Shown here: one piece after another, positions 2,886 through 31,571 of the stretch
Layout of the letters: every line of letters starts with the position of its first letter
Position numbering within the stretch: the first letter of the stretch is position 1
Assembly: GCA_028875345.1 (NCBI GenBank)
Contig: JAPPEG010000182.1
Coordinates: forward strand, 1 to 38,772
Length of the DNA stretch: 38,772 nt
Direction: 5' to 3'
From: Gemmatimonadota bacterium
GTDB taxonomy: Bacteria; Latescibacterota; UBA2968; UBA8231
The notes under the pieces: model-generated
Told to the model about the DNA's origin: nothing
What the model saw: only the letters and a program-made list of their open reading frames with translations
Databases searched by the model: none
Made by a program: the position numbers and the translations under genes

Positions 2886-4169
2886 CTACAGATACTGTTC
2901 GTACACGGCGAGTGTCCCCTCGGCCATGGCGTCGGCGTGGAAGCGACTGTGGACCGCCTCTTGGCCGGTTTGTCCGAGTTGGCGTCGCCGCTTCTCGTCG
3001 CGCAGCAAGGCGGCAAGCTCGTTGGCTAGTATCTTCGGGGAATGGGGTGCGACGAGGAGACCGCCGCCGGTGGCTGCGATCAGCTCGGGGAACGCACCGT
3101 GGTCGGGCTGGACGACCGGGATGCCATTGGCCAAGGCTTCGAGGATCGACAGACCCTTGGGATCGGCGTAAACCGAGGGTACGGAGAAGACGTGGAGCGA
3201 GGAGAGGAAGCGGATTTTTTCGCGGCGATCGACTTCGCCGTGGTAGGCGAACGAGTCGGCCAGCCCCCAGCGGCGGATTTTTTGCACCTGCTCGGCGAAG
3301 TAGGGCTTGTCATAGGCGCTGAGGTAGCCCGCGGCTTCGAGGCGCAGGGGGGCAAACTCGGGCTGTTCTTTTAATTGCTGGAAGGCATCGACGAGCAGGT
3401 GAAAGCCCTTTTCCGGGCAGATGCGGGCGAGGTAGCCGATTTTGTAGGGGCCGTCCGCGGGCGGTGACTCTTGGCCGTGTCCGGTCAGGTTGAGGCCGAG
3501 TGGCACCGCGTGGATTTTTGTGCGCGGCACCTGTAGGTATTCGGCCATGTGCTCTTGGTAATACGCACACGGGGCGATGAAGGCGTCGATGTCTTGGGCG
3601 CGTTGGCGCAGGATTTTCAGGGCTTGGGACTTCCAAGGTTCGGGCAGGCCGTCTAAGAACAGGTCTTCGCCTTGGAGAGCGCAGAGCACGGGGACGCCTA
3701 GTTGGGCTTTTAGTTGCCGGGCCATGCCGACGAACATGGCGTTGGTTAGCTGGATGAGGTCGGGTTTGAAGTCGCGCTGGAGCCAAGCGATGAGTCGGGT
3801 GAGTTCCTTTTGTTGATTCCCCTCTTCGCCAGCGAGGATTGAGACGGTGAGTGGTCCTAGATCGCGGGCGTTGGTAGAGGATCCAAAGCGCGCGAGAGTG
3901 CGGATCAGGAACGGCGAGTCGAGGACGCGGTCGAAGAGGCGGTGTGTGCGGCGAAAAAACGGCCACTGCTGTTGCAAGAAGATGCTGATGCCACCGTAGA
4001 AGACGCGGTCCAGCGAGACGTTTTCCTCGTCCGTGCGCAGTGGCGTATAGGTCGGGATGAGGGCGACATCGGCGTCGCGGCGCGAGAGGGCGGCCGCGAG
4101 TGCGTTGTCGTGGATGCAGCTACCGCAGTACATGCCGGCGGCACCGGCCGTGATGTAGGCGATGCGCAT
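2886..4169 (-). CDS. Glycosyltransferase family 4 (GT-B fold)
   Basis: A 427-residue retaining glycosyltransferase of the GT4 type, which transfers a sugar from a nucleotide-activated donor to an acceptor on the cytosolic side. The N-terminal acceptor domain begins MRIAYITAGAAGMYCGSCIH, with the glycine-rich loop typical of GT-B enzymes. The C-terminal donor domain has IGYLARICPEKGFHLLVDAF and the E-x7-E region EALANGIPVVQPDHGAFPEL. It is the last gene of the 11-gene operon, starting 2 nt after the symporter stop with no ribosome binding site of its own, so it is probably translated by coupling. The acceptor is unknown. Confidence 0.9.
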   Translation of the reverse strand: MRIAYITAGAAGMYCGSCIHDNALAAALSRRDADVALIPTYTPLRTDEENVSLDRVFYGGISIFLQQQWPFFRRTHRLFDRVLDSPFLIRTLARFGSSTNARDLGPLTVSILAGEEGNQQKELTRLIAWLQRDFKPDLIQLTNAMFVGMARQLKAQLGVPVLCALQGEDLFLDGLPEPWKSQALKILRQRAQDIDAFIAPCAYYQEHMAEYLQVPRTKIHAVPLGLNLTGHGQESPPADGPYKIGYLARICPEKGFHLLVDAFQQLKEQPEFAPLRLEAAGYLSAYDKPYFAEQVQKIRRWGLADSFAYHGEVDRREKIRFLSSLHVFSVPSVYADPKGLSILEALANGIPVVQPDHGAFPELIAATGGGLLVAPHSPKILANELAALLRDEKRRRQLGQTGQEAVHSRFHADAMAEGTLAVYEQYL

Positions 4170-4171
4170 CG

Positions 4172-5626
4172 CTAGAAGAATTTATCGACGGTGCTTTTGG
4201 CCGGTGGCTTGGTCAGTAGCGAGCCGACGACCATGGCCACGGCAGAAGCCGCTAGGATCACCACTACGGGCATTACCCCGGTCATGCCGACGGTGTAGCC
4301 GGGAACTTTCCACCCTTGAAAGAAGAAATAGCACCACAGCGCGGCCACGGTGAGCACGGAGGCAAAGGCACCGTACTTGGTGCTGCGCTTCCAGAACAGC
4401 GCGGCTACTACCACTGGAAAGAGCGCTGCGAAGCCGGTGAAGGACCAGATGGCGAGGGTGAAGATGCTGCGGGCCGAGACCAGGGAGAGCACGTAGGTAA
4501 CGGCGAAGATGGCGATCACGAAGAGGCGGCCCGACAGGACTTGGGCCTTTTCGCTCAATTCGTCGCCCTTGCGATAGTGGCGGACGATGTCTTGGGTGAA
4601 CATGTTGCTGATGGACAGCACCTGCGAGTCGAGCGAGGACATTATGGCGGCAAAGACCCCAGCGGCGAGTAGGCCGGCTAGGGCACCAGGAGCGTGTAGG
4701 TCGATCATCTTGACCAGCACGGAATTGGCGGCCGCGCCCTTGAGGCCCGGGAAGTCAATGCTGCCGAAGATCCCTAGGAGTACGCTGGGGATCCAGACGA
4801 TGGCGATGCACAGGGGGTAGAACATCAGCGGCCAGCGAAAGGTGCGAGCGCTTTTAGCGGTTAGCCAATGGGTGAAAAGGTGAGGGAACATGCCGACCGA
4901 CAGCGGGATGCAGGTGTAGGTCAACAGTTTGATCGGGCTGATATTGTCTCCTTTGATCAGCAGTTCGGGGTGCGCCGCCGCGACTTGCGCCAGTGCGCTG
5001 TCCAGCCCGCCTAGCTTATCGACGATGACGAAGAAGGTCACGCCGCCCAAGATCATAAAGACCAGGGTTTGGAAGGCGTTGGCCCAGGCGGTGCTCCTCA
5101 TGCCGCCGAAACTGACGTAGGTCAGCACCACCAAGCAGATCAACAGGCCACCGGCCCATTGGGGAATCTGCCCCTTGGTGATTTGGGCGAGGGTAATGCC
5201 GCCGCCCATGACGCCGATGAGCAGGTAGGGAATCAGCAGCGCGATCATGACGACGAAGAGCAGCAGACCCAAGCCGTCGGAGTCCCAGCGGCGGCGGAAG
5301 TACTGAACTTGCGTGAGGAGGTTGTGGCGCTTGCCGAGCGCCCAGACGCGGGTGCCGATAAAGAAGAAGACGGTGGGGATGATCAGAGCCGCACCCGAAG
5401 GCATCAGGGCAAAGACGCCGATCCCGGTGTGATAGGCTTCGCCGGAGGCTCCCAAGATGGCGAACGCGGTCATGTTGGTGCCAAACAGCGACATCAGCAG
5501 CAGGAAGGGGCCGATGGAGCGGCTGGCGACGAAGTAGTCCTCGCCAGTGCCGCGAAAGAAGCGGTTGGAGAGGACGCCGATGCAGAGTACTAGGCCGAGG
5601 TAGCAGAAGATGATGATCGTGGTCAT
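4172..5626 (-). CDS. Sodium:solute symporter (SSS family)
   Basis: A 484-residue inner-membrane symporter with about 13 hydrophobic segments. The first helix begins MTTIIIFCYLGLVLCIGV; the conserved SSS stretch FGTNMTAFAILGASGEAYHTG is near residues 48-68. SSS transporters use the sodium gradient to import sugars, amino acids, carboxylates or vitamins. The ATG at 5626 overlaps the TGA of the DUF3311 gene (ATGA). A longer open frame to 5668 adds a basic, non-membrane N-terminus and is rejected. DUF3311 + SSS pairs are common and resemble carboxylate transporters such as MctP; a carboxylic substrate would suit the upstream CoA ligase but is inferred. Confidence 0.93.
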   Translation of the reverse strand: MTTIIIFCYLGLVLCIGVLSNRFFRGTGEDYFVASRSIGPFLLLMSLFGTNMTAFAILGASGEAYHTGIGVFALMPSGAALIIPTVFFFIGTRVWALGKRHNLLTQVQYFRRRWDSDGLGLLLFVVMIALLIPYLLIGVMGGGITLAQITKGQIPQWAGGLLICLVVLTYVSFGGMRSTAWANAFQTLVFMILGGVTFFVIVDKLGGLDSALAQVAAAHPELLIKGDNISPIKLLTYTCIPLSVGMFPHLFTHWLTAKSARTFRWPLMFYPLCIAIVWIPSVLLGIFGSIDFPGLKGAAANSVLVKMIDLHAPGALAGLLAAGVFAAIMSSLDSQVLSISNMFTQDIVRHYRKGDELSEKAQVLSGRLFVIAIFAVTYVLSLVSARSIFTLAIWSFTGFAALFPVVVAALFWKRSTKYGAFASVLTVAALWCYFFFQGWKVPGYTVGMTGVMPVVVILAASAVAMVVGSLLTKPPAKSTVDKFF

Positions 5627-5847
5627 GCCGCTTGCTCCTCGTCCTCTGCGTCCAACTCGGACGGCCAAGCGTAGTTGACCAGCAAGATCATCAGCCCGGT
5701 GGCGGCCACGCAGAAACCGATGTGGTAGAGCAAGCCGATGGGAAGTCCCAAGACGATGCGCGGATCGTCCCAGAGCCAGAGGTCGTTGTGCAGGAGGTAG
5801 AGGACCAGAATCCCCAAGTAGAGGAGTCGGCGGACGGTGGCGTTCAC
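5623..5847 (-). CDS. DUF3311 small membrane protein, symporter partner
   Basis: A 74-residue protein with two transmembrane segments (RRLLYLGILVLYLL and YHIGFCVAATGLMILLVNY) separated by a short loop containing LWLWDDPRIVLGLP, and a very acidic tail. This matches DUF3311, a small protein encoded just upstream of sodium:solute symporters and thought to be an accessory subunit. It starts with GTG at 5847, preceded by AGGAGT, and overlaps the flavoprotein stop as GTGA. Its own TGA overlaps the symporter ATG. A longer open frame to 5985 is a shadow of the flavoprotein gene. Confidence 0.88.
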   Translation of the reverse strand: MNATVRRLLYLGILVLYLLHNDLWLWDDPRIVLGLPIGLLYHIGFCVAATGLMILLVNYAWPSELDAEDEEQAA

Positions 5848-7100
5848 TGGGTTACTCCTGAAGGTTGCGGGGTTAAGGGGACGGCGGCGGGCATTGGACA
5901 GACCTCGCTCATCGGCCCGAAAATAGGCTCGACATGCTCGCTGAAGAGGTTGCCGCTGAGGACGTCGATGACCCCCTGTTTGCATTCGGGGTGGCGTTTG
6001 AGGAATTCGGCGAAGCTGAAGTCCTTGGAGTAGAAAGCGTACACCATTTTGCGCACCGCCTCCATGCCGTGCACTAGCTCCGGCCCGAAACCGCCCAACT
6101 GCTCAGCAGAAAAGTCGCCTTTGGCAAAGGCTTCGGCGATGGCGTCAGCGGCCATTTCGCCGGATTTGAGCGCTAGGTACACGCCCGAGGAGTACATCGG
6201 ATCGAGAAAACAGAACGCGTCGCCGACCAGCACCCAACCTTCGCCAGCGATGCGGCTGGCGCGATAGGAAAAATCCTTGGTGGTCTTGACCGGAAAGAGC
6301 TGCTCAGCGTGTTGCAGGCGCTCCTGCATGGGTCGGCATTTGGCTAGCTCTTGCCCGAAGATGGTCTGCGCGTCTTCGCGGCGGCCTTGGACCAAGTAGG
6401 AGATCGCGCCGACCACGCCGACGCTGACCTTGTCGTCGGGCAGGGGGATGTACCAGAACCAAGAGTCCCGGCTCTCGGTGTGGAGGATCAAGGTCGCGCC
6501 TTCGTCAATGCCCTCGTCGCGCTGGCCGCCGCGATAGTGGGTGTAGATCGAAGCCTTCTTTAGCTCGGGCTCGGGCTGGGTCAGCTTGAGCTTGCGGCCG
6601 ATCAGCGCACTCTGGCCGGTGGCATCGACTACTACTTGCGCGGCAAAATCGCGGGTTTGGCCGTCGGCGAGCTTGGCGCGCACGCCGGTAGCGCGGTCTC
6701 CCTCGAACAGGACTTTGAGGACCCGGGCACCCTGATGTACTTGGGCACCTTTTGCGCGGGCGTTGTCGAGGAGCATCTCGTCGAATGGGCCGCGCAAGAC
6801 CTGCCAAGTTATCGCGCTTTCGTGGGGATTAGTGTCAGAAAAGTAAAAGGGCGTTGAGCCGCGACCCGACTTGCCGAAAAACTGCACGCTGTGCTTGCGG
6901 GGGAAGGCGCTGTCTTTGAGCCGGTCGAGCACGCCGAGCCGTTTGAACGTCCAGTAGGTCTCCGGCATTAGAGACTCGCCGATTGTGAAGCGGGGGAACT
7001 GCTCCCGCTCGAAGAGCTGGACTTGGCGGCCAGTTGCGGCGACGAGGGCGGCTACGGTGCTGCCAGCGGGGCCGCCGCCGATGACGATGACGTCGCTCAC
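5844..7100 (-). CDS. FAD-dependent halogenase-like oxidoreductase
   Basis: A 418-residue flavoprotein. The N-terminal Rossmann loop is GGGPAG at residues 8-13, followed by Glu31 for the FAD ribose and the PRFTIGESLMP segment typical of flavin-dependent halogenases. The diagnostic WxWxIP motif is present as WFWYIP (214-219). FAD motifs VLVGDA (290-295) and DPMYSSGV (300-307) follow. Flavin halogenases chlorinate aromatic rings through a lysine chloramine; Lys69 (FPRKHS) is a candidate but I cannot prove the equivalence. It starts with GTG, overlaps the PaaK-like gene (GTGA) and has AGGAGT upstream. Geranylgeranyl-reductase-type oxidoreductases are the main alternative, although they normally lack WxWxIP. 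Confidence 0.82.
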   Translation of the reverse strand: MSDVIVIGGGPAGSTVAALVAATGRQVQLFEREQFPRFTIGESLMPETYWTFKRLGVLDRLKDSAFPRKHSVQFFGKSGRGSTPFYFSDTNPHESAITWQVLRGPFDEMLLDNARAKGAQVHQGARVLKVLFEGDRATGVRAKLADGQTRDFAAQVVVDATGQSALIGRKLKLTQPEPELKKASIYTHYRGGQRDEGIDEGATLILHTESRDSWFWYIPLPDDKVSVGVVGAISYLVQGRREDAQTIFGQELAKCRPMQERLQHAEQLFPVKTTKDFSYRASRIAGEGWVLVGDAFCFLDPMYSSGVYLALKSGEMAADAIAEAFAKGDFSAEQLGGFGPELVHGMEAVRKMVYAFYSKDFSFAEFLKRHPECKQGVIDVLSGNLFSEHVEPIFGPMSEVCPMPAAVPLTPQPSGVTQ

Positions 7101-8422
7101 GGGTTACTCCTGTGATCGGTGAAGCGCCGCGCTTTGAGTTCAAAGCGCGGCAGGGTGTTCGGCGCGGCGATTTGGATGGCGGCGCGCAGGCCCAGCCGGT
7201 GGGCGAGGGCGCGTTCTACTTGGGTGGCGGTGTCGTTGGCATTGCCGTCTAGTTCTAGGTGGACTTCCAACTCGTCTAGTGCTCTGCGCCGATGGACGTC
7301 AACGGCGAATTCGGTGACTGCGGGAAACTGGCGCACGACGTTTTCGATGGCGCTGGGATAGACGACCACGCCGCGGATGAGCAAGGCGTCGTCGAGGCGG
7401 CCGATGACGCCGCCTTGAAGCCGCTGGAAGGTGCGGCCGCAAGCACAGGGCGTGCGATTGAGGGCGACGCGGTCGCCGGTGCGGTAGCGGATAACCGGCA
7501 TCCCCGTGCGGCCGAGGTTGGTGATGACCAACTCGCCCTCGTCGGCGGGGGTGCCGCTTTGCGGATCGACTATTTCGCAGATGAACTCCCCCTCGTTGAG
7601 GTGTAAGCCGGCCTGTTCGCGGCAGTCGAAACCCCAAGCGCCGACCTCGGTGGCTCCGGCGTGGTCGGAGCAGTGGGCACCCCAAGTGCGCTCGAGTTGG
7701 GCGCGGGTAGCAGGTAGATTTGCGCCCGGTTCGCCCGCGTGGATGGTGGTGTGCACGCTGCTTGTGGCAAGGTCGAGGCCGCGCTCGCGGGCGACTTCGC
7801 CTAAGTGCAAGGCATACGTTGGTGTACAGACGAGGACGGTGATTTCGTTTTCGACGATGGCGTCTAGGCGCTGCGCTGAAGACATGCCGCCGCCGGGGAC
7901 GATCAACGCGCCGATGTGGCTGGCTCCTTGGTGTCCGCTCCAAAAGCCGATGAAGGGGCCAAAGGAGAAGGCAAAAAAGATGCGATCGCGCTCGCCGACG
8001 CCCGCGGCGCGATAGACCTGGGCCCAGCAGCGGCCCCACCAGTCCCAGCTCTCGGCCGTGTCGAGCCAACGCAGGCGTTGGCCGGTGGTGCCGGAGGTCT
8101 GGTGGATGCGGGTGTAGCACTCGGGCGGATAGGTGAGGTTGGTGCCATAGGGGGGATGCGCGACTTGGTCGGCGGAAAGTTCGGCGCGGGTGGTAAAGGG
8201 GAGGCGGGCTAAGACTTCGGCGAGCTCAGACTTCGGCGAGCCCAGTCGAGTCGTCGAGTCGTCGTCGAGTGCGGCGATGTCCTCGGCTCGCGTGATGCCG
8301 GCCGCGTTGAGCTTCTGGCGGTAAAATGCGTTCGTCGCCAGCACTTGGCCCAGCAGGGCGTGCAGGCGTTGAAGCTGGTGTTCCGCCAGCGCATCACGGC
8401 TGAGATGTTCGCAGTTGCTCAC
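7097..8422 (-). CDS. Phenylacetate-CoA ligase-like adenylate-forming enzyme
   Basis: A 441-residue ANL-superfamily ligase of the PaaK type, activating a carboxylate, typically aromatic, with ATP and then joining it to CoA. Residues 107-114 hold the phosphate loop HQTSGTTG; YRTGD is at 313-317, a CACGR cysteine pair at 326-330, the hinge GRLDDALLIRGVVVYPSAIE at 341-360, and a C-terminal catalytic-lysine region ELKARRF. It starts with GTG overlapping the TonB receptor stop (GTGA). Around residues 53-70 there is an unusual repeat-derived insertion (separate entry). The next gene is the halogenase-like flavoprotein, suggesting an activated aromatic acid may be its substrate or precursor. Confidence 0.9.
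   Translation of the reverse strand: MSNCEHLSRDALAEHQLQRLHALLGQVLATNAFYRQKLNAAGITRAEDIAALDDDSTTRLGSPKSELAEVLARLPFTTRAELSADQVAHPPYGTNLTYPPECYTRIHQTSGTTGQRLRWLDTAESWDWWGRCWAQVYRAAGVGERDRIFFAFSFGPFIGFWSGHQGASHIGALIVPGGGMSSAQRLDAIVENEITVLVCTPTYALHLGEVARERGLDLATSSVHTTIHAGEPGANLPATRAQLERTWGAHCSDHAGATEVGAWGFDCREQAGLHLNEGEFICEIVDPQSGTPADEGELVITNLGRTGMPVIRYRTGDRVALNRTPCACGRTFQRLQGGVIGRLDDALLIRGVVVYPSAIENVVRQFPAVTEFAVDVHRRRALDELEVHLELDGNANDTATQVERALAHRLGLRAAIQIAAPNTLPRFELKARRFTDHRSNP
8212..8270. repeat. Short direct repeats inside the PaaK-like gene
   Basis: The 14-mer agacttcggcgagc occurs at 8212-8225 and again at 8228-8241, a 16-bp period. It is followed by iterations of tcgag/tcg up to about 8270. 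A single 16-bp duplication would break the frame, but the ligase frame stays open across it, so another length change (for example one 8-nt tcgagtcg unit) probably restores it. Confidence 0.7.
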
Positions 8423-10554
8423 AGCGAATAACCGAGGGTCGCCTTGAAGGAGAAAGGGGCGGCTGGGATGACCGAGGTGCTCCCGAATCCCCGGGTCTCG
8501 TATTCGCTGCCAGTCGCGTTTTTGAGGTTTATCCGCAGCAGTCCCGGGCCTTGCCGGTAGGTCAGCCCGCAGTCGAGCGTTAGTGCGCCGTCGATCTCAT
8601 AGACATTGTCCTCGGCCACGAACTGGCTGCCGACGTAGCGGATGCCAGCGGCCAAGGTGAGGTTTTCGCCCAAGTCGCGGGCAGCCCACAGCGTCAAAAG
8701 GTGTTCGGGAGCGAAGGCTGGCACATTGCCCGTGCGGTTGAAGACTTGGGGGACGAAGCCATTGGCGGTGGGGATCAACACGGATTCGTTGAAGCGCGTC
8801 AGCTCGGCGTCCAAAAAGGCGTAGGTGCCTTGGGCGTACCAGCCTTGGGTTAGACGCGCTACCAGTTCCAACTCCAAGCCCCGGGTGCGCTGGTCGCCGA
8901 GTTGCTTGGTGACTCCGTTGTCGTCGGGGATGGCGATGTGCTCTTTGTCGAGGTTGAAGACGGCGAGGTTGGCGCTGAGGTTGCCGTCGAGCAGCGCGGC
9001 TTTGGCTCCGATTTCGTACTGGGTGCTTTCCTCGGGGTCGCGGTCGCCTACTACTTGAGAAGAAGGCGGGGCAAAGGCGCGACCTGTATTGGCGTAGAGC
9101 GAGAAGGTTTGAGTCGGAGCGAAAATTGCGCCGAGCATTGGGCTTAGCTGCCGGTAATCGCGCTTGGTGGCGGTGAGCTCGTCCTCGTAGTCGATCCGGT
9201 CGAAGCGGCCCCCGAGTAAAAGCTCAAAGTGGGGGCTGAAAATTATGCGGTCGACAAAGTAGGGTGCCAGTGTTTGCGCGGCGGCTTGGGCTGCGGTTGT
9301 TTGGTCAGGCAGGGGGACCACGAGGGAGTCGGTCCCGGCTTCTGCTGGCATGAAGGGGGCTAGGCTCGGCGGCAATGTCGCGTCGAGCGTGAACAGATCG
9401 ACGAACGAAAGCAACGCCACGTCGAGGGTAAAATCATCCGTGAGGTTGGCGACCTCCAAGCCAAAGAGGAACTGGTGCTCAATACCGCCGGTTTGCAGTC
9501 TTAGCAGGCCTTCGAGTTGGTTGCCGACGATCCGCTGCTGGTCGTCGAGGTCGAGCAGGGTGCGGGCGAGGTCCAGGGAGCCAGTCGCGTTGGGAAAGGC
9601 TCCGTTGAAGAGGGTGCCCTGCGAGGGCCAGTCGAGACTGGTGTAGTAGAGTTTGTCGCGCAAAGTGAAATTGGGACTCAGGTGCCATTCATAATCGGCG
9701 CGAAAGCGCAGGATGGTCTGTTCGGAAAGGTCAAAGGGCGACTGGTATGAGCGAGTGCGCGGCACATCGGGCAGTGCGCCGCCGACGATGGGCAGACCCG
9801 AGTCGGAGCTATGTTCGCTCGTCAAGTACTCAAAGTCGAGATGCAGCGTCGAGCGCTCGCCGAGGTTCAGCCGCAGCGTTGGGTTTACGGCGAGAATCGA
9901 GCTGTTTTTGCCGTCGCGGTAGCCCTCCGCGTCCTGCCACAGCGCGTTGAGACGCAAGGCGAGGTTTTGGTCGGGCAGGGCGCGGGCAGCGTCGAGGGTA
10001 GCGCGGTAAGTGGAGAAGCTCCCTAAGGAAGCGTTGATGCGGGCGAAGTTGCCGGCCGAGACTGGCCGTTTGCGGACGAGGTTGATGGTGCCCGATAGCG
10101 GGTTGCCGCCGTAGAGGAAGGCACCGGGGCCTTTGAGGGCCTCGACGCGGTCAACATTGTAGAGTTGGTAGAAGGTCGCTTCGGGTTCGGGGGCTCCGTC
10201 GGAGAGCACTAAGCCGTTGGCGAGCGAGTCGAAGCCGCGCAGGTAGAATAGGTCGTGGACGCCGAAATTGGTGTGGACGCCGACGCCGCTGACATTGGCC
10301 AGCGCGTCGCTGAGAGTTGCGCCGTCTTGGGTCTCGATTAGAGGCTGGGGGACGATCCCGACGCTCAAGGGGGTCTTGTTCAGGGGCAGCGGCATTTTGG
10401 TGGCGATGGCGTTGGCGCGGGGAATGGCCAGTCGCGAGCCGGTGACGATGGTCTCATCGACGACGTGGAGTGAGTCGTCGGCGCTTTGGGCATGGACAAG
10501 GGTTGTCGGCACCGCCAAGGCAAAAATTAACAGGGTGCCACGGATATTTCTCAT
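8419..10554 (-). CDS. TonB-dependent siderophore-type outer-membrane receptor
   Basis: A 711-residue outer-membrane receptor with a signal peptide ending near residue 23 (TTLVHAQ). A plug domain follows (ETIVTGSR, then KTPLSVGIVPQPLIETQDG), with the YLRGFDS and VDRVEALKGPGAFLYGGNPLSGTINLVRKRP segments typical of FhuA/FpvA-like siderophore receptors, and then a 22-strand-type barrel. Such receptors import ferric chelates or other large ligands using TonB energy. It sits between three secreted PQQ-like propellers and the PaaK-like ligase, overlapping both neighbours by 4 nt. There is no adjacent TonB/ExbBD or ABC importer, so the ligand's route across the inner membrane may be the SSS symporter; that is inference. 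Confidence 0.93.
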   Translation of the reverse strand: MRNIRGTLLIFALAVPTTLVHAQSADDSLHVVDETIVTGSRLAIPRANAIATKMPLPLNKTPLSVGIVPQPLIETQDGATLSDALANVSGVGVHTNFGVHDLFYLRGFDSLANGLVLSDGAPEPEATFYQLYNVDRVEALKGPGAFLYGGNPLSGTINLVRKRPVSAGNFARINASLGSFSTYRATLDAARALPDQNLALRLNALWQDAEGYRDGKNSSILAVNPTLRLNLGERSTLHLDFEYLTSEHSSDSGLPIVGGALPDVPRTRSYQSPFDLSEQTILRFRADYEWHLSPNFTLRDKLYYTSLDWPSQGTLFNGAFPNATGSLDLARTLLDLDDQQRIVGNQLEGLLRLQTGGIEHQFLFGLEVANLTDDFTLDVALLSFVDLFTLDATLPPSLAPFMPAEAGTDSLVVPLPDQTTAAQAAAQTLAPYFVDRIIFSPHFELLLGGRFDRIDYEDELTATKRDYRQLSPMLGAIFAPTQTFSLYANTGRAFAPPSSQVVGDRDPEESTQYEIGAKAALLDGNLSANLAVFNLDKEHIAIPDDNGVTKQLGDQRTRGLELELVARLTQGWYAQGTYAFLDAELTRFNESVLIPTANGFVPQVFNRTGNVPAFAPEHLLTLWAARDLGENLTLAAGIRYVGSQFVAEDNVYEIDGALTLDCGLTYRQGPGLLRINLKNATGSEYETRGFGSTSVIPAAPFSFKATLGYSL

Positions 10555-11798
10555 TGAGTTGCTCCCACTATGTTTATGCGGACGATTTCTTTATTGTCGC
10601 GGAGGTAGATCCCACCGTCAACGAGCGAGGGGATGGTCCCACATCCGCTGCGGTGGAAGACTAGGGTGTTGGCCTTTTCAACGAAGCCTGCGGGCGTGGC
10701 TTCAGCTATGCCGAGATTGCAGCGTTCGCCCAAGATGACGAGATGGCCGTCGGCGACGATCAGGGTACCCGTGCCATAGCCCCGGGTCTGCCACTTTTCC
10801 TCGCCAGTCTCGGCGTCGAGGCATTTGAGGACCGAACCATCGAAACCGTAGAGATACCCTTGGTAGTAGATGGAGGTGGCAGAGTGGTTTTGCATGTTAT
10901 TATTGCGCCAGACTTCCGCCACTTCATAGCCCTTGTCTGTAGCTGTGACTTCCACCACAGAGCCGCCCATACCGTAGCTGGAGGAGATAAAGAAGCGATT
11001 AGGTGGAATAAAAACCGGGGTAGCAGCGTTGGTGGATTGGCTGGTTATCCAGGGATATTGCCACAGCACCCGGCCTTTCTGCGGCGCGACCGCGATCAGC
11101 CCGTAGGCGGTAAAAAATACCGCTTGGCGCGTTTGGCCGATGGTGGCGATGATGGGAGAGGAGTGGCCCCTCTCGTCGCTGCCAGCAGTCCAGGCGACCT
11201 CGCCGCTAGTTTTGTCAAAGGCGATCAGCGAATGGCCTTTCTTACTGCCCGCTTCGATTAAGACGCGGTCTCCTTCGACTAGCGGCGACGCTGCAAAGCC
11301 CCGACCGGGCCTCACGCTGTCGAATTCGAGTACTATATCGCGGCTCCATCGTTGGGTACCAAACTGGCTGTCGAGCGCGAGGAGTTTGCCATGGGCGCTG
11401 AAGACATAGACCATCTTGCCGTCAACCGTGGGGGTGGCACGCGGACTGCCGCCGCCTCGCCATCCCGAAGGATCGTTGCCGATGGTGCGGGTGCGCCATA
11501 TCACTTCGCCATTGCGGGCGTCGAGGCAGACTGCGTATTCGTATCCACTGTGGATGTACATTGTATAGAGGCGATCCCCGACTACGGACAGGCCGGAAGA
11601 TCCCTGCCCGGCATGGACGCGCCAGGACTCTTTAAAAGATGGCGCTTTGCCGAACAGACCCGTCTCCGGCGAGATGCCGTTGCGGTGAGGACCGAGCCAT
11701 TGCGGCCAGTCCGTCCATTGCCAGTGCGACCAATCTTGGGCCAAGGTCGGCAGGGCACCTAAGACGATGGAGACCAGGGCGGTGTGCGCGGTGCTCAT
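10551..11798 (-). CDS. Secreted PQQ-like beta-propeller protein C
   Basis: A 415-residue periplasmic beta-propeller. The signal peptide ends near TLA|QD (about residue 20); a tryptophan-rich N-terminus WSHWQWTDWPQWLGPHRNGI follows, then repeated blades of the V-x-x-LD-x-x-TG-x-x-x-W kind (such as CLDARNGEVIWRT and ALDSQFGTQRWS). These are PQQ-like/BamB-type folds that either bind a quinone cofactor in dehydrogenases or act as scaffolds; no catalytic residues can be assigned. It is a close tandem paralogue of the next two genes upstream and ends in GATQ, with its TGA overlapping the receptor's ATG. Confidence 0.88.
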   Translation of the reverse strand: MSTAHTALVSIVLGALPTLAQDWSHWQWTDWPQWLGPHRNGISPETGLFGKAPSFKESWRVHAGQGSSGLSVVGDRLYTMYIHSGYEYAVCLDARNGEVIWRTRTIGNDPSGWRGGGSPRATPTVDGKMVYVFSAHGKLLALDSQFGTQRWSRDIVLEFDSVRPGRGFAASPLVEGDRVLIEAGSKKGHSLIAFDKTSGEVAWTAGSDERGHSSPIIATIGQTRQAVFFTAYGLIAVAPQKGRVLWQYPWITSQSTNAATPVFIPPNRFFISSSYGMGGSVVEVTATDKGYEVAEVWRNNNMQNHSATSIYYQGYLYGFDGSVLKCLDAETGEEKWQTRGYGTGTLIVADGHLVILGERCNLGIAEATPAGFVEKANTLVFHRSGCGTIPSLVDGGIYLRDNKEIVRINIVGATQ

Positions 11799-13036
11799 TG
11801 GGCTGTCCCCACCACGTCTATGCGGACGATTTCCTTATCATCGCGGAGGTAGAGTCGGCCATCGGCCAGCGCGGGAGCCGTCCAGCATTTGCTGCGGAAG
11901 ACCCAAGTGTTGGCCTTTTCGACGAAGCCTGCGGGCGTGGCTTTGGCTAGGCCGAGATTACCGCGTTCGCCCAAGAGGACGAGGTGGCCATCGGCGACGA
12001 TCAAGGTGCCCTTGCCGTAGCCTCGGGTCTTCCACTTTTCGGCTCCGGTTTCGGCGTCGAGACATTTGAGGATCGAGCCGTCAAAGCCGTAGAGGTGCCC
12101 TTGGTAGTAGATGGAGGTGGCGAAGTGATTTTCCATCTCTTTGTTGCGCCAGATCTCCTTCGCACTATAGCCGCGGTCTGTGGCGGAGACCTCCACTACA
12201 CTGGCCCCCGTGCCATAGCCGGAGGAGATAAAGAAGCGGTTGGGCGGGATGAAAACCGGGGTCGCGGCGTTGACGTTGTGCCTAGTCGTCCAGGGGTGTT
12301 TCCACAGTACTTGGCCGTGTTGTGGCGTGACCGCGATCAGCCCGTTGCCGGTGAAAAACACCGCTTGATGCGTTTGGCCGATGGTGGTGGTGATAGGAGA
12401 GGAGTAGCCCAGCTTGTCGCTGCCGGTTTTCCAGGCGATGTCGCCGCTGGTTTTGTCAAAGGCGATCAGCGAATGACCGCCCGTTCCGCCGGCTTCGATT
12501 AGAACGAGGTCTCCTGCGACTAGGGGCGACGGGCAAAAGCCCCAGCGGGCCTTCTTGCTGCCGAATTCGCGCACTAGGTCGTGGCTCCATTTTGGGGAGC
12601 CGGTCTGGCTGTCGAGCGCGTAGAGTTTGCCGTAGGCGCTGGAGACATAGACCATCCCGTCGTCCACGGTGGGGGTGGCGCGCGGACCGTCGCCGCCTTG
12701 CCGTTCCATTAACATACCGTCGGTGCGGGTGCGCCACAGTACTTCGCCATTGCTGGCGTCGAGGCAGATCGCGTATTCATTGCCGCTGTGGATGTACATC
12801 GTATAGATGCGATCGCCGACGACGGACAGGCCGGAAAAGCCCTTGCCGCCTTGGACGCGCCAGGATTCTTCAAACGACGGCGCGTCGCCGAACAGGCCGG
12901 TTTCCGGCGAGATGCCGTTGCGGTCGGGGCCGAGCCATTGCGGCCAGCCCGTGGATTGCCATTGCGACCAATCTTGGGCCAAGGCTGGCAAGGTGCATAA
13001 GACGAGGACTAACAGGGTGTTACGCGCGATACTCAT
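11795..13036 (-). CDS. Secreted PQQ-like beta-propeller protein B
   Basis: A 413-residue secreted propeller, the closest relative of protein C. It begins MSIARNTLLVLVLCTLPALA, then QDWSQWQSTGWPQWLGPDRN. Blade motifs include CLDASNGEVLWRT, ALDSQTGSPKWS and CLDAETGAEKWKT. The open frame continues to 13273, but those residues shadow the upstream gene; the ATG at 13036 overlaps the upstream TGA and directly precedes a signal peptide. Nucleotide similarity to protein C is high across its length, for example gaggagataaagaagcg in both at 10980 and 12220, showing a fairly recent duplication. Function, and whether PQQ is bound, are unknown. Confidence 0.88.
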   Translation of the reverse strand: MSIARNTLLVLVLCTLPALAQDWSQWQSTGWPQWLGPDRNGISPETGLFGDAPSFEESWRVQGGKGFSGLSVVGDRIYTMYIHSGNEYAICLDASNGEVLWRTRTDGMLMERQGGDGPRATPTVDDGMVYVSSAYGKLYALDSQTGSPKWSHDLVREFGSKKARWGFCPSPLVAGDLVLIEAGGTGGHSLIAFDKTSGDIAWKTGSDKLGYSSPITTTIGQTHQAVFFTGNGLIAVTPQHGQVLWKHPWTTRHNVNAATPVFIPPNRFFISSGYGTGASVVEVSATDRGYSAKEIWRNKEMENHFATSIYYQGHLYGFDGSILKCLDAETGAEKWKTRGYGKGTLIVADGHLVLLGERGNLGLAKATPAGFVEKANTWVFRSKCWTAPALADGRLYLRDDKEIVRIDVVGTAQ

Positions 13037-14280
13037 TGGGTTGCTCCTTGCACATTGAGGCAGACGATCTCGCTTTCGTCGCGCAGGTAGAGACGGCCAT
13101 TGGCCAGCGAAGGAATGGTCCAGCAGCGGCTGTCGAAGACGGGGTAACTGGCCTTTTCGACAAAGCCTTCGGGCGTGGCTTCGGCTATGCCGAGATTGCC
13201 TTGTTCGCCCAAGATAATGAGATGGCCATCGGCGATGAGCAGGGTGCCCTTGGCGTAGCCTCGGGTCTTCCACTTTTCTTCACCGGTCGCGGCGTCGAGG
13301 CACTTGAGGATTGAGCCGCCAAAGCCGTAGAGATGGTTCTCGTAGAGGACCGAGGTGCCGAACTCGTTTTCCATCTTTTTGTTTTGCCAGACCTGCTCGA
13401 CGGCGAGGCTGTCGCCGTTGCCCTTGATTTGCAAGAGTGTGCCGCCGTTGCTGTTGACGGTGGAGATAAAAATTCGGTCGGGCGCGATGAAAACGGGCGT
13501 CGCCGCGCTGACGTCGTAGCGGGTTTTCCAAGGGTAGCGCCAGTAAACGCGGCCGTCTTCCGGCGCTAGGCCGGTAAGCGAATAGGCCGTGAAGTAGGCG
13601 AGTTGGCGGGTGCCGGCCGCGGTGAAGGCGATGGGCGATGAATAGCTCATCTTTTCGTTGAGGGCGGTCCAAACGGTTGCGCCGGTGGCTTTGTCGAGGG
13701 CTACGGCGGTGACCGGGGTTGTGCGGTCGATGGCCATATCGACGACGAAGTTGCCGTCGTGGCCGCCGGCTTCGACTAGGAGCAGGTCGCCTTCGACTAA
13801 TGGGGAGGTACTAAACCCCCACCTCGGCACTTGGCTGCTGAACTCGGCGACCAAGTCCTTTTCCCAGATCGGCGTGCCACTCGCGGCTGCGAGTGCAAAG
13901 AGCTTGCCGGTGGCACCGAGGACATAGACGGTTTCGCCATCGACGGTGGGCGTGGAGCGCGGGCCGTCGCCGCCTTGGGTTTCCTTGTAGTAAGGGCCGG
14001 TGCGGTGACGCCAGATCTCCTTGCCAGTCTCGGCGTCGAGGCAGATGGCGAACTCGTCGTCGCCTTGGGCGAACATGGTGAAAACCCGACCGTCGGCGAT
14101 GGAGATGCCGGAGAAGCCATTGCCGAGCGGGACGCGCCACGCTTCGGCAAAAGGCTGCTCGGCGGTGAAGAGGCCGGTTTCGCTGGAGATGCCGTTGCGC
14201 TGGGGGCCCAGCCACTGGGGCCAGTCGGCTGCTTGTGCAGCGGCGGTCAGGAACAGTAGAAATGCGATCGCGTTTTTCAA
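13033..14280 (-). CDS. Secreted PQQ-like beta-propeller protein A
   Basis: A 415-residue secreted propeller and the first of three tandem paralogues. The start is a TTG at 14280, supported by a strong AGGAGG five nucleotides upstream. The signal peptide ends at AQA|AD, followed by DWPQWLGPQRNGISSETGLF. Blade motifs include CLDAETGKEIWRH, ALDKATGATVWT and CLDAATGEEKWKT. It carries an insertion around HDGNFVVDMAIDRTTP absent from proteins B and C, so it is the more divergent copy. It lies 13 nt after the radical SAM gene, and its TGA overlaps the next ATG. Confidence 0.88.
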   Translation of the reverse strand: MKNAIAFLLFLTAAAQAADWPQWLGPQRNGISSETGLFTAEQPFAEAWRVPLGNGFSGISIADGRVFTMFAQGDDEFAICLDAETGKEIWRHRTGPYYKETQGGDGPRSTPTVDGETVYVLGATGKLFALAAASGTPIWEKDLVAEFSSQVPRWGFSTSPLVEGDLLLVEAGGHDGNFVVDMAIDRTTPVTAVALDKATGATVWTALNEKMSYSSPIAFTAAGTRQLAYFTAYSLTGLAPEDGRVYWRYPWKTRYDVSAATPVFIAPDRIFISTVNSNGGTLLQIKGNGDSLAVEQVWQNKKMENEFGTSVLYENHLYGFGGSILKCLDAATGEEKWKTRGYAKGTLLIADGHLIILGEQGNLGIAEATPEGFVEKASYPVFDSRCWTIPSLANGRLYLRDESEIVCLNVQGATQ

Positions 14281-14293
14281 TGCTACCTCCTAC

Positions 14294-15631
14294 TTAGGTA
14301 TAGCGTGCGTTGCGGTATTGGGTTTGGTAAAAATCGGGTAGGAGCTGATCGACGCGCATGAGGCCCTCGTCGGTCAAGGTGATCGAGTCCGCGTCGAATT
14401 GGAGCATGCCCTCGTCGCGCAGGCCGCTGAGCACGGTGGCAAAATGGGCGACGATATCGACTCCGAATTTGGTGCGAAAATACGCGGGATCCAGCGCGCC
14501 TAATTTGAGTTGGAGGATCGCCTCGCGGGTGAGTTGTTCTTCGCGGTTGGTGGCAAAGGCGCGGTGGATGGGGAGGTCGCCGCGGTCGATAGCACCGAGG
14601 TACTCGTCCCATTGCGGCGCATTCTGGTAGTGGACGCCGCTCAGGTGCGAGAAGGAGGCCACACCGGTGCCGATCATGTCTTGGCCGGTCCACACGGCGT
14701 CGCGGTACACGAAGCGGGCGTCGGGCGTTTTCTTCATGGTGTAGGCGCTCGAACGCACGTATCCGGCGGCGGATAGTTGCTCGAAGGCGTAGGCGTGCCA
14801 AGCGCGCTTGGTCTTCCAATCGGCCAAGGCCAGCGGCTCGCCGTCGCCAGCGAGTAGGTCCTTGGAATAGACCGTGTTGTAGGGCAACTCCATTTGATAG
14901 ACGGTGACGCTATCGGGGTCGAACTCGATGGTCTTTTGCACGGTCTGACGCCAGCTAGGCCACGTCTCGCCGACCATGCCGGCGATCAGATCGACGTTGA
15001 CCTGATCGAAGTCGAGCGCGTGGATCCAGGGCACGACTTGGTAGATTTCCTTGCTGACGTGGGCGCGGCCGTTGTGGCGCAGAATCTCGTCGTCGAGGTT
15101 TTCTATTCCGAGGCTGAGGCGGGTGACGCCGATGGCGCGGATGGCTTCTAATTTGGCTTGGGTCAAGGTACCCGGCTCGCATTCAAAGGCGACTTCGTCG
15201 GCGTGATCCCAGGACATGGCGTCTTTGAGGCGCGCTACCAGCGCTCGGAGATGCCGCGAACTGATGTAGGAGGGTGTGCCGCCGCCGAAGTAGATAAAGT
15301 GCAGTGGTCGATCTTTGACTGCTGGCTGCTGGGCGTAGTGTTCCACCTCGCGGGCGAGGGCGTCTAGGTAAGTCTGGATCTGCTGGCTGTTTTTGTCCGT
15401 GTAAACGCGGAAGTAGCAGAATTTGCAGCGCTTGCGGCAGAAGGGGATGTGGAGATAGAGGCCGAGCTTGGTGTCGGAGTACGGGTGGTCGGCGAGTGCG
15501 CGGTGTGCCTGTGAAATGTCCTCCTCGCTCCAAAACGAATAGGCTGGATAATTGGAGACAAAGACGCTGCCGACCTCGGTTTCGGTGCGGTCGGCGCGGG
15601 TGGTTGCTGGGTCGCTGCTGAGTGAACTCAT
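14294..15631 (-). CDS. HemN/HemW-like radical SAM protein
   Basis: A 445-residue radical SAM enzyme. The iron-sulfur motif is C65-x3-C69-x2-C72 (HIPFCRKRCKFC), followed by FIYFGGGTPS at about 112-121 and a C-terminal HemN-type domain. This family includes oxygen-independent coproporphyrinogen oxidase, the heme chaperone HemW, and the heme-degrading ChuW/HutW enzymes. The N-terminus (NYPAYSFWSEEDI) and the YQMELPYNTVYSKDL segment differ from what I recall of housekeeping HemN, so I do not assign a reaction. The ATG at 15631 overlaps the upstream TGA; an in-frame ATG at 15655 is less likely. Association with a TonB receptor makes a tetrapyrrole or metallophore role possible. Confidence 0.85.
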   Translation of the reverse strand: MSSLSSDPATTRADRTETEVGSVFVSNYPAYSFWSEEDISQAHRALADHPYSDTKLGLYLHIPFCRKRCKFCYFRVYTDKNSQQIQTYLDALAREVEHYAQQPAVKDRPLHFIYFGGGTPSYISSRHLRALVARLKDAMSWDHADEVAFECEPGTLTQAKLEAIRAIGVTRLSLGIENLDDEILRHNGRAHVSKEIYQVVPWIHALDFDQVNVDLIAGMVGETWPSWRQTVQKTIEFDPDSVTVYQMELPYNTVYSKDLLAGDGEPLALADWKTKRAWHAYAFEQLSAAGYVRSSAYTMKKTPDARFVYRDAVWTGQDMIGTGVASFSHLSGVHYQNAPQWDEYLGAIDRGDLPIHRAFATNREEQLTREAILQLKLGALDPAYFRTKFGVDIVAHFATVLSGLRDEGMLQFDADSITLTDEGLMRVDQLLPDFYQTQYRNARYT

Positions 15632-16716
15632 GGTTTGACTTCTTTCCCAAAACAATACAGCACGCCGTCGGTGGCTCCAATGACGAGTCGGCCGGCGGCG
15701 ATGGCCGGTGAAGCGGCGATGGTTGCGCCCGTTTCAAAGCGCCAGACTTCTGCGCCCGATGCGAGCGCGAGGGCGATGAGCGCACGGGCACCTACGTAAA
15801 TATAATCACCGGCGATGACCGGCGAGGAATCTACCCGTGCGCCTGCGGCAAAGGTCCACAAGGGTTGGCCCGTTTGCGGGTCTAGAGCGTGTACGAATTT
15901 GTCTCGGCCACCGATGACGATTGCTTGGTCGGCAACGGCTGGCGACGAGTAAAACGGGAATTTCCGCACCGCGTGGGCGTAGCGCCAGCGGATTGCTCCT
16001 GTGTCTAGATCGATGCCGAGTACTTCGTTGCCAAAGGTGCCTAGATACGCGCGTTCTGCATAGATGGCGGCGCTAGAAGCCACGTACCCGCCTAATTCAA
16101 GCTGCTGGTGCTGCGTGCCGTCGGCGCGATCCAAAAGACGCAGGTATCCGTCGCAACCGGCTACGGCTACGCGGTTTTTATATAACGCCGGCGTACTGTG
16201 AATATATCCCTCTGTGGCGATTTTCCAAATTAGGGTTCCAGCGGTTGCGTCGAGGCAGTACAGATGCTGGTCGTAGCTGCCAAAGTAGAGACGGTTGTCG
16301 GCATGGTTGGCCGAGGAGATGATGCCGGCGTCGGCGGCGAAAGTCCAGCGGCGCTGACCGCTTTGGATGGCGACGGCGTGGAAGGTGCCGGCTTCGTCGC
16401 CGAAGTACACGGTGCTGTCGGCGATGGTGGGGGAGGACTTGATTTCGCCGTCGGCTTGGTACTGCCATACTAGCGCGCCGGTGTGCAAGTCGAGTGCGTA
16501 GAGTTGCCCGTCGAGCGAGCCGACGTACACAGTGCCTTCGTGGATGGCGGCGGTGGATTCGATGGCGTCTTGGGGGGGGTAGGCCCACAGCAGCGTTAGG
16601 GGCGGAGCGAGTTCGGAGGTGGCGACGCCGGTGAGTTGGGGGTTGCCGCGGAAGGTGTTCCAGGTGTCGGCGGCGACGGTGGTGACTAGGAGTAAGGTTA
16701 AGAAGTAGAGTGGCAT
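15628..16716 (-). CDS. Secreted PQQ-like beta-propeller protein D (operon leader)
   Basis: A 362-residue secreted propeller, the first gene of the 11-gene operon. A signal peptide (MPLYFLTLLLVTTVAA) precedes DTWNTFRGNPQLTG and seven to eight regular blades such as VYVGSLDGQLYALDLHTG, LYFGSYDQHLYCLDATAG and VHALDPQTGQPLWTF. This regular BamB/PQQ-like architecture differs from the WPQWLGP group downstream, so it is not part of the tandem triplication. It probably works in the periplasm as a binding or scaffold protein; a cofactor cannot be confirmed. No strong ribosome binding site precedes the ATG. Confidence 0.87.
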   Translation of the reverse strand: MPLYFLTLLLVTTVAADTWNTFRGNPQLTGVATSELAPPLTLLWAYPPQDAIESTAAIHEGTVYVGSLDGQLYALDLHTGALVWQYQADGEIKSSPTIADSTVYFGDEAGTFHAVAIQSGQRRWTFAADAGIISSANHADNRLYFGSYDQHLYCLDATAGTLIWKIATEGYIHSTPALYKNRVAVAGCDGYLRLLDRADGTQHQQLELGGYVASSAAIYAERAYLGTFGNEVLGIDLDTGAIRWRYAHAVRKFPFYSSPAVADQAIVIGGRDKFVHALDPQTGQPLWTFAAGARVDSSPVIAGDYIYVGARALIALALASGAEVWRFETGATIAASPAIAAGRLVIGATDGVLYCFGKEVKP

Positions 16717-18786: not shown

Positions 18787-19914
18787 TCAAAACGCCATCT
18801 CATAAAGCCGCAGGAAGTCCGCTTCTTGCAAAGGAAGCGGGTTGAAGGTACCGGTCCACTGCCCAGCGGCTTCTTGGGCCATGGCGGGTAGATCGCTTGC
18901 GGCGACCTGACAATCGGCGAGTCGGCGCGGTAGTCCCGCCATAGCGCACAATTCTTCGAGATGGGCGGCGAGTGCGAGTGCGCTGCCGTTGAGTTGGATG
19001 TCCGCGCATAGTTCGCCGTATAGATCGTCCACTACTTGGCCGTTCAACCGAATTACGTGCGGCAGCATCAGGGCTACGGCGCGGCCGTGGGAGAGTGGGT
19101 AGCGGGTGGTGAGGGGGTTGGCGGTGGCGTGGGCGGCACCGAGCATGGAGTTTTCGATGGCGGTGCCGGCTAGGTGGGCACCTAAAAGCATGGCGTCGGC
19201 GGCGTTTTGGGGATCGGCGACGGCTGCTGCGTAGTGGGGTGCTAGTAGCTGCCAGGCTTGGCGGGCGAACATTTGCGAGAGGGGTGTGCGGCGGGTGGAG
19301 ACGTAGCTTTCGACGGCGTGGGCGAGGGCGTCGATGCCGGCGTCGGCGCGGACGCGCAGGGGGACGCTGGTCAGCACGTTTGGGTCGAGGATGGCGATGT
19401 GGAAGCGCGCTTTGCGGTCGCCGCAGGCCATTTTGGCATTCGTGTCGCCGCAAGTAATCAGGGCGTAGGATTGAGCCTCGCTGCCCGTTCCGGCTGTGGT
19501 GGGGATGCCGATGGAGGGCAGCATGGATTGGGCGGCTTTGCCGTAGCCTTGGTAGTCCTGCATTTGGCCGCCGTTGGTCAGCAGGAAATTGATGCCCTTG
19601 GCGCAGTCCATAGCGCTGCCGCCGCCCAAGGCGACGATCAGGTCGATGGGGCCGTGGGAGCGGGCGTGGTGGACGCCAGCGGCTACGTGTTCGGTCGTGG
19701 GGTTTTCTCCTACGGCGGAAAAAGTGGTTGTCTTTAGGCCGGCGTTTTGTAGCGCGTGATAGGCCTGTTCGGCGAGGCCGGCTTGGACGAGGCCGGGATC
19801 GGTTACGAGCAGGGCGCGGGGGCCGGCCAATGCGATGGCGAGATCGCCTAGTTGGTCGAGAGTCCCAGCACCAAAGACTACGCGGATGGATGGATCAAAG
19901 TCGAAGGGGGTCAT
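18787..19914 (-). CDS. Iron-containing alcohol dehydrogenase
   Basis: A 375-residue group III (iron-type) alcohol dehydrogenase, interconverting aldehydes and alcohols with NAD(P)H. The nucleotide-binding GGGSAMD begins at residue 97, IPTTAGTGSE is at 137-146, and the metal ligands fit Asp195, His199, His262 and His276 (DAGIDALAHAVES, GAAHATANP, YPLSHGRAVALMLP). Length is normal. The ATG overlaps the TGA of the upstream aldehyde dehydrogenase (ATGA), so they are co-translated; together they look like AdhE split into two proteins. It ends 26 nt from the convergent ABC exporter gene, with no clear terminator. Confidence 0.92.
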   Translation of the reverse strand: MTPFDFDPSIRVVFGAGTLDQLGDLAIALAGPRALLVTDPGLVQAGLAEQAYHALQNAGLKTTTFSAVGENPTTEHVAAGVHHARSHGPIDLIVALGGGSAMDCAKGINFLLTNGGQMQDYQGYGKAAQSMLPSIGIPTTAGTGSEAQSYALITCGDTNAKMACGDRKARFHIAILDPNVLTSVPLRVRADAGIDALAHAVESYVSTRRTPLSQMFARQAWQLLAPHYAAAVADPQNAADAMLLGAHLAGTAIENSMLGAAHATANPLTTRYPLSHGRAVALMLPHVIRLNGQVVDDLYGELCADIQLNGSALALAAHLEELCAMAGLPRRLADCQVAASDLPAMAQEAAGQWTGTFNPLPLQEADFLRLYEMAF

Positions 19915-31512: not shown

Positions 31513-31571
31513 AAGGGACGGGTCGTCCTTCATTCGCCGCTTAATGATCACCCGAATAGGAGCCACTATCC

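Follow-up and report, generated by a model that had tools for sequence, protein, structure and literature searches.

The flavin-dependent halogenases PltA, Mpy16, ChlB4, and Bmp2 act on carrier-bound substrates and belong to polyketide synthase (PKS) or nonribosomal peptide synthetase (NRPS) loci, and FasV (PDB 8zop) is what we take to be the halogenase of the fasamycin pathway. EhpF and EhpG, from the biosynthesis of D-alanylgriseoluteic acid, are presumably a carboxylate-reducing pair. In PMC3175449, EhpF to EhpO lead from a phenazine dicarboxylate to the final product, and EhpF and EhpG are listed together for a Proteus phenazine locus in PMC11278526. A marine cluster with chorismate lyase, flavin halogenase, and P450 genes turns 4-hydroxybenzoate into a tetrabromo-biphenyldiol, according to PMC10579414; sponge-symbiont Latescibacterota are described as gene cluster rich in PMC9426513, and a term search of PMC6644159 for sponge halogenases gave a general sentence only. 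A literature search limited to open PubMed Central, its sources represented in part, found no description of the gene set studied here: a halogenase-like flavoprotein gene and its neighbors on a stretch of 38,772 nucleotides (nt), called the window below, which is one entire contig (JAPPEG010000182.1, our C389) of the 5.03-Mb draft genome GCA_028875345.1 (87% complete) from a Gemmatimonadota bacterium placed by GTDB in the Latescibacterota.

At a probability of about 0.5, we propose that this flavoprotein, a probable halogenase, would carry out one step of an undescribed pathway, conserved across phyla, that acts on a 4-hydroxybenzoate-type acid; the proposal draws on family-level gene identities, conserved motifs, fold, synteny, and co-occurrence, from which substrate, step order, halogenation, product, and direction of transport are inferred. 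We conclude firmly that the flavoprotein belongs to a conserved pathway together with an EhpF/EhpG-like pair, an iron-containing alcohol dehydrogenase, and a HemN-like radical S-adenosylmethionine (SAM) enzyme.

The flavoprotein and its relatives

A preliminary description of the window had reported a putative flavin halogenase translationally coupled to a ligase. Both ORFs are present at the coordinates given, on the minus strand. The ligase stop codon TGA (7099 to 7097) and the flavoprotein start codon GTG (7100 to 7098) share the letters GTGA, a 4-nt overlap, and an AGGAG lies a few bases upstream. It had also read WFWYIP and GESLMP as typical of flavin-dependent halogenases, and a family alignment of 95 sequences shows that these segments (residues 214 to 219 and 41 to 46) are no chance occurrence. 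G41, E42, and S43 are kept in all 95, as is Lys69 within FPRKHSVQ; 94 sequences have W214, W216, I218, and P219 (one gap); D300, P301, S304, and G306 are found in 92 (three gaps); and G8, G10, and G13 of the GxGxxG motif for flavin adenine dinucleotide (FAD) in 93 to 94. In a reference alignment, Lys69 falls in the column of the catalytic lysine of PltA, Mpy16, ChlB4, CndH, FasV, and SgcC3. The residue preceding WxWxIP is Ser in the window flavoprotein instead of Gly, and Thr in PltA. Another motif, DPxYSSG, is found in 88 of the 95 sequences; its Tyr303 (codon at 6192 to 6194) takes the place of a Phe in PltA, Mpy16, ChlB4, CndH, SgcC3, and the Rhizobium CmlS, possibly a clade-specific change in the active site.

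The flavoprotein passed the cut-off of Pfam's Trp_halogenase (21) at 98.2 bits. The best curated NCBI model was CmlS (NF033113), its 207.2 bits falling far below the cut-off of 900, followed by QhpG (142 bits) and the geranylgeranyl reductase family TIGR02032 (139.6 bits, cut-off 158.8); all members of a family alignment of 42 matched the CmlS model at an E of <1e-10, and the QhpG and reductase family models were matched too. The top PDB sequence matches were FasV (E = 1.4e-63), Mpy16, ChlB4, CndH, and PltA, and a fold search with an AlphaFold model (predicted local distance difference test, pLDDT, 93.7) ranked FasV, ChlB4, Bmp2, Mpy16, CndH, and PltA best, the top 11 rows all being halogenases with template modeling (TM) scores, as TMq, of 0.79 to 0.88. 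A prenyl reductase of the geranylgeranyl reductase kind could call on the TIGR02032 score, under its cut-off as it is, and on polyprenyl synthase and squalene-hopene-cyclase-like neighbors in a few planctomycete-type loci. However, the CmlS model scores higher, reductase structures rank far below halogenases by fold, and neither the catalytic-lysine column nor WxWxIP is lost, so that we rejected this as the best reading and regard it as very improbable. The prenyl-type neighbors themselves were dropped, not being common to the other loci. A QhpG/LodB-type maturase of protein cofactors is weakly excluded, a small peptide substrate gene having been sought no further than the lists of open reading frames (ORFs).

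The halogenase function had been put forward from motifs. The fold and all sequence marks speak for it, and in a tree of 47 rows (30 of them from the family, with UbiI, UbiH, and FixC as controls) the family does not group with these non-halogenating controls. With Lys69 present as well, neither outcome that the preliminary description had named as refuting, loss of the lysine or placement among non-halogenating oxidoreductases, was seen. Three observations weigh against it. A starred branch (99/100) unites the known halogenases, the flavoproteins of aryl-polyene-type loci, and three others; none of the 30 family rows is inside, and the family is placed outside both known groups of characterized halogenases. 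The active-site motifs differ, with DPxYSSG for DPxFSSG and K-x-S-V-Q-F after the lysine. Finally, the lysine and WxWxIP are also present in flavoproteins of aryl-polyene-type loci (Pseudoalteromonas and Azospirillum), whose function is unproven, and the motifs alone are therefore no proof of halogenation. Calling these loci aryl-polyene type is our own reading of their neighbors (ammonia-lyase, ketosynthases, LolA, and thioesterase); two flavoproteins of this kind lie at L122:3980-5221 and L120:2974-4287, and homologs from Aureispira and Caballeronia keep the lysine and WxWxIP as well. Nor is the family one supported clade, with 27 of its 30 rows in one fork (89/88, below the star level) and L064, L049, and L062 at unresolved positions. 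Since the family sits outside the known halogenase groups, and the mark-bearing aryl-polyene-type flavoproteins are separate too, halogenation is likely rather than established.

The flavoprotein might instead serve the same pathway as a non-halogenating monooxygenase or oxidase of the aromatic acid, hydroxylating 4-hydroxybenzoate, for example, or decarboxylating it oxidatively, with the lysine and WxWxIP as inherited marks of a wider group. The tree position, the same marks in the aryl-polyene-type flavoproteins, and the Tyr for Phe in DPxYSSG would all fit, as would the clear resemblance that the flavoprotein bears to QhpG, a monooxygenase, and to the geranylgeranyl reductases. Yet the best PDB matches by sequence and by fold are halogenases, CmlS is the top curated model, though far under its cut-off, and WxWxIP, which would disfavor monooxygenation, is nearly invariant in the family. 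We hold a monooxygenase or oxidase to be rather unlikely, and a halogenase to be the most likely single function and, judging from sequence and model, probably the right one.

The window flavoprotein is 82 to 97% identical to homologs in metagenome-assembled genomes (MAGs) of Latescibacterota and in MAGs labeled Gemmatimonadetes (L003 to L012), and several of the MAG names suggest marine or sponge sources. Some genomes hold a second family copy (G176, G178, G184, G201, and G004, the last on C383). In the window's genus there is also a longer paralog (G001:C51, G007:C36, G009:C515), with frames of 580 to 645 amino acids (aa), 33 to 35% identity, and a length nearer that of CmlS.

Conserved partner genes across genomes and loci

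In an even sample of 99 Planctomycetota genomes around Botrimarina, the flavoprotein (E < 1e-70) was found in 21 and the EhpF-like protein (E < 1e-100) in exactly those 21, neither being strong in the other 78. The HemN-like radical SAM enzyme (E < 1e-80) was present in 20 of the 21, missing in G185, and in none of the 78. For independent genomes, the probability of the 21-with-21 match would be about 6e-22; these genomes are not independent, and the figure is a guide only. Cut-offs for co-occurrence were chosen post hoc, where strong and weak matches separate; left out as weak were flavoprotein matches with an E near 1e-64 (G142 and G206), EhpF-like matches of 3e-56 to 8e-41 in G139, G147, G169, G172, G192, and G208, and a second such match in G155. 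The identical distribution of flavoprotein and EhpF-like protein turns an odd gene pair into a pathway open to testing in cultured species.

A sample from the window's own phylum, 100 genomes around and including its own, gave 32 genomes with the flavoprotein, 34 with the EhpF-like protein, and 32 with the radical SAM enzyme, the flavoprotein being joined by the EhpF-like protein in 32 and by the radical SAM enzyme in 31. The exceptions are G009 (75% complete), with the flavoprotein and without the radical SAM enzyme; G039, where this is reversed; and G011 and G039, with the EhpF-like protein and without the flavoprotein. Weak matches in G067, G091, and G087 were left out, and G033, its flavoprotein gene split across two contigs, was counted as positive. 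All three proteins are present in G023, and 13 fellow members of its family (G011 to G022 and G024) are without flavoprotein and radical SAM enzyme, G011 having the EhpF-like protein. In 18 genomes with family flavoproteins, mostly chosen because the partners were absent near the flavoprotein gene, an EhpF-like ortholog was found in all 18 and a radical SAM ortholog in 16; three genomes with an out-of-family homolog gave no EhpF-like match and weak radical SAM matches.

Synteny was followed in a homology map over 80 flavoprotein loci, many of them truncated by contig ends. The recurring order is EhpF-like enzyme, aldehyde dehydrogenase, iron-containing alcohol dehydrogenase, beta-propeller, HemN-like radical SAM enzyme, more propellers, TonB receptor, ligase, flavoprotein, DUF3311-SSF pair, GT4 glycosyltransferase, a small membrane protein with no Pfam match, 4HBT thioesterase, ATP-binding cassette (ABC) ATPase, and MacB/FtsX-like permease, thioesterase and permease being named by Pfam. 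The window has the full core order without a chorismate lyase (Table 1). Counts per 80 loci were 42 for the radical SAM enzyme, 40 for the ligase, 27 for the core-type propeller, 25 for GT4, 23 each for the TonB receptor and ABC protein, 22 each for the iron-containing alcohol dehydrogenase and thioesterase, 18 for SSF, and 14 for chorismate-lyase-like genes; GT4, the small membrane protein, the thioesterase, and the MacB/FtsX pair are recurrent, not universal. Where at least 7.3 kb was available on each side, 35 of 48 loci have a radical SAM, ligase, or chorismate-lyase-like gene and 13 have none of the three, two of these 13 (L080 and L081) lying outside the family clade. A planctomycete core operon of EhpF-like enzyme, aldehyde dehydrogenase, iron-containing alcohol dehydrogenase, propeller, and radical SAM enzyme occurs in L137, L138, and L139, and in L146 without the radical SAM gene. 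In Botrimarina hoheduenensis Pla111 (L065), a chorismate-lyase-like gene stands directly before the flavoprotein gene, and the core operon is elsewhere on the same contig. In Poribacteria loci (e.g., L025, L029, L031, and L058), the protein following the flavoprotein is, by eye, a TAXI-type receptor of the tripartite ATP-independent periplasmic (TRAP) kind, seen in 20 loci.

The EhpF-like protein of the window is a full-length homolog of EhpF, aligning over residues 11 to 360. Some of its plasmid relatives bear an annotation as arylcarboxylate reductase or as phenazine biosynthesis protein. In plasmid records that hold both, the EhpF-like gene is beside or near one for an aldehyde dehydrogenase related to that of the window. 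The two genes are adjacent in L137, L138, L139, and L146 and about 4.2 kb apart in the window. The radical SAM enzyme scored 202 on the HemN equivalog TIGR00538, below the cut-off of 324.95.

The ligase had been called PaaK type, with aromatic acids as its usual substrates. It is AMP-forming and PaaK-like, with an AMP-binding_C_2 domain (Pfam) and PaaK-type models nearest, but its 214.8 bits on the PaaK equivalog TIGR02155 fall below the cut-off of 646.3, and a true PaaK was dropped on that ground. In the PDB search, PaaK (E = 1.6e-51) and 2-hydroxyisobutyryl-coenzyme A (CoA) synthetase (E = 2.4e-47) were about equally near; because of this and the missed equivalog, an aromatic acid cannot be read from the ligase. 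Among the 40 loci with a PaaK-like gene within the fetched flanks, 13 keep the 4-nt overlap; in the remaining loci the ligase is up to about 4.9 kb from the flavoprotein, downstream of it in L064, or not within reach. The coupling is real in the window, and the ligase is not a universal partner.

Table 1. Features of the window, with positions, strand, and basis of assignment
Feature	Positions	Strand	Basis
Flavin-halogenase-like flavoprotein, 418 aa, GTG start	5844-7100	-	ORF, Pfam, PDB search, family alignment, AlphaFold model, tree
Flavoprotein motifs: GESLMP; Lys69 codon; WFWYIP; DPMYSSG	6963-6980; 6894-6896; 6444-6461; 6183-6203	-	
PaaK-like AMP-forming ligase, 441 aa	7097-8422	-	ORF, Pfam, curated NCBI models, PDB search
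EhpF-like short adenylating enzyme (arylcarboxylate reductase component); presumed start	25540-26616	-	EhpF 3l2k (E = 3e-44), plasmid annotations; start from alignment
EhpG-like aldehyde dehydrogenase, divergent, partner to the EhpF-like enzyme	19911-21305	-	Pfam, plasmid neighbors
Iron-containing alcohol dehydrogenase, 4-nt overlap with aldehyde dehydrogenase	18787-19914	-	ORF list, Pfam
Beta-propeller (PQQ_2 type), member of conserved core	15628-16716	-	Pfam, locus map
HemN-like radical SAM enzyme, CxxxCxxC present	14294-15655	-	Pfam, curated models, co-occurrence
Three tandem PQQ_2 beta-propeller paralogs, optional locus part	10551-14280	-	Pfam, locus map
TonB-dependent receptor, siderophore receptor model above its cut-off, optional locus part	8419-10554	-	Pfam, curated models
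Small DUF3311 membrane protein, true start uncertain	5623-5985	-	Pfam, locus map
Sodium:solute symporter (SSF), paired with DUF3311	4172-5668	-	Pfam, curated models, locus map
GT4-type glycosyltransferase, often downstream of the flavoprotein	2886-4169	-	Pfam, curated models, locus map
Two more PQQ_2 propeller genes, upstream of the EhpF-like gene; same order in KSB1 locus L042	26613-30238	-	Homology map

The window thus holds six PQQ_2-type propeller genes (10551 to 16716 and 26613 to 30238), three of them tandem paralogs and one type belonging to the conserved core. A separate plus-strand run (30229 to 38772) encodes a DUF362 protein (Pfam) and, by eye, two PhyH-like, mandelate-racemase-like, DHDPS-like, and sulfatase-like proteins. 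The flavoprotein and ligase had been said to lie outside an obvious PKS/NRPS cluster, and neither Pfam nor the curated models gave a PKS or NRPS match among the window proteins scanned.

A putative pathway on a 4-hydroxybenzoate-type acid

An aromatic acid is better inferred from the EhpF/EhpG-like pair in the window and from the lyase-like genes beside the flavoprotein in other phyla. The 14 loci with chorismate-lyase-like genes fall into two groups, c23 (L017, L032, L036, L041, and L046) and c26 (L049, L056, L060, L061, L063 to L065, L076, and L078). Genes of the c26 group, for proteins of about 185 aa, immediately precede the flavoprotein gene in loci of planctomycetes and Opitutaceae. The proteins have no Pfam match at 0.001, Rv2949c-like appearing weakly in two of nine members (best E of 0.04, short of the cut-off). 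A c26 model (pLDDT 89) matched the DUF98 protein AF1396 at a Z of 17.1 and chorismate lyase at a Z of 12.0; GntR effector domains have the same fold and score about equally with chorismate lyase, so that fold alone does not decide the identity of c26. Aligned with UbiC of Escherichia coli K-12, c26 keeps the Arg, the Leu-Gly of PLG, the Gly-Arg, and the Glu, which presumably include UbiC active-site residues, and profile comparison with UbiC gave an E of 4e-4 at a low probability of 34%. In L017 and four Poribacteria loci, the c23 gene adjoins that for the radical SAM enzyme or the ligase, and all four proteins tested passed the Pfam Rv2949c-like cut-off of 22, with 37.2 to 57.9 bits. Moreover, a chorismate-lyase-like gene predicted for the 560- to 840-nt gaps between radical SAM and flavoprotein genes in eight further planctomycete genomes was present in all eight (106 to 201 bits), and none was found in eight other flavoprotein-adjacent stretches, some of them short, or in shuffled decoys. 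Of 60 relatives, 13 have a c23-type gene, among them two of the window's genus; in G005 it lies about 11.5 kb from the flavoprotein. By their sequences, these genes would point to a 4-hydroxybenzoate-type substrate of the pathway.

In the order of steps that we propose, 4-hydroxybenzoate would come from chorismate through the chorismate-lyase-like enzyme, or by uptake or activation by another route. The flavoprotein, with reduced FAD, O2, and a halide, would then form hypohalous acid (HOX), which Lys69 would capture for halogenation of the phenolic ring, on the free acid or, in loci with a coupled PaaK-like ligase, on the CoA ester. The EhpF/EhpG-like pair would activate the carboxylate and reduce it to the aldehyde, and the iron-containing alcohol dehydrogenase would yield the benzylic alcohol. 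The HemN-like radical SAM enzyme may add a further carbon-centered change, perhaps C-methylation, and the glycosyltransferase and MacB/FtsX-type exporter found in many loci may finish and export the product. In its fullest form the proposal is tentative, and we would sooner doubt than assert it: a widespread PKS/NRPS-free pathway from chorismate through 4-hydroxybenzoate to a halogenated and then reduced phenolic (a benzylic aldehyde or alcohol), using a new halogenase clade, an EhpF/EhpG-type pair, and a HemN-like enzyme, in Latescibacterota, Poribacteria, KSB1, Acidobacteriota, Planctomycetota, Verrucomicrobiota, and others.

Some findings pull away from this biosynthetic proposal. Co-occurrence among related genomes is non-independent evidence, the window's genome, 87% complete, yielded no member of either chorismate lyase group, and the TonB receptor and SSF symporter suit uptake as much as export. 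The locus could instead be a catabolic and uptake operon, in which an aromatic compound enters through receptor and symporter, is converted by the ligase to its CoA ester, and is oxidized by the flavoprotein; the TonB receptor, DUF3311-SSF pair, and beta-propellers on one strand run would agree with this, as would a LysR-type protein identified by eye at 1045 to 1938. However, the TonB receptor and the symporter are found in just 23 and 18 of the 80 loci, other loci have chorismate-lyase-like genes and a MacB/FtsX-type exporter, and the co-occurring EhpF/EhpG-like pair is tied to biosynthesis in phenazine loci. We consider a catabolic operon improbable. Should the biosynthetic proposal hold, uncultured sponge symbionts and planctomycetes would share a pathway to a phenolic, probably halogenated metabolite, and the flavoproteins would be compact halogenases of a new clade, whose small-molecule substrate could be tested.

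Comparison with described systems

The window ligase resembles PaaK and 2-hydroxyisobutyryl-CoA synthetase in ligase family and in its AMP-binding_C_2 domain, and differs from PaaK in its low equivalog score. With EhpF and EhpG the locus shares a short adenylating enzyme and, in related loci, an adjacent aldehyde dehydrogenase; phenazine-core genes were not noticed in the present loci, and the proposed acid is 4-hydroxybenzoate, not a phenazine. The marine bmp-type/4-BP clusters, as described in PMC10579414, likewise combine a chorismate lyase gene with a flavin halogenase gene and use 4-hydroxybenzoate. They have a P450 where the present loci have the EhpF/EhpG-like pair, iron-containing alcohol dehydrogenase, and HemN-like enzyme. 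PltA, Mpy16, ChlB4, and Bmp2 are similar to the window flavoprotein in fold and in a length near 410 to 450 aa, and the first three, which the alignment covered, also in the aligned lysine and WxWxIP; they form a separate clade in the tree and have Phe, not Tyr, in their DPxxSSG motif. The closest described protein is FasV, the best match of the window flavoprotein in both sequence and fold (32% identity; TM score, 0.85 to 0.87), with the aligned lysine, WxWYIP, and a motif of its own, DPLLSTG. Unlike FasV, the family lies outside the clade of FasV, CmlS, SgcC3, and CndH, and the window flavoprotein is accompanied by a putative pair for aryl-carboxylate reduction and by a radical SAM enzyme.

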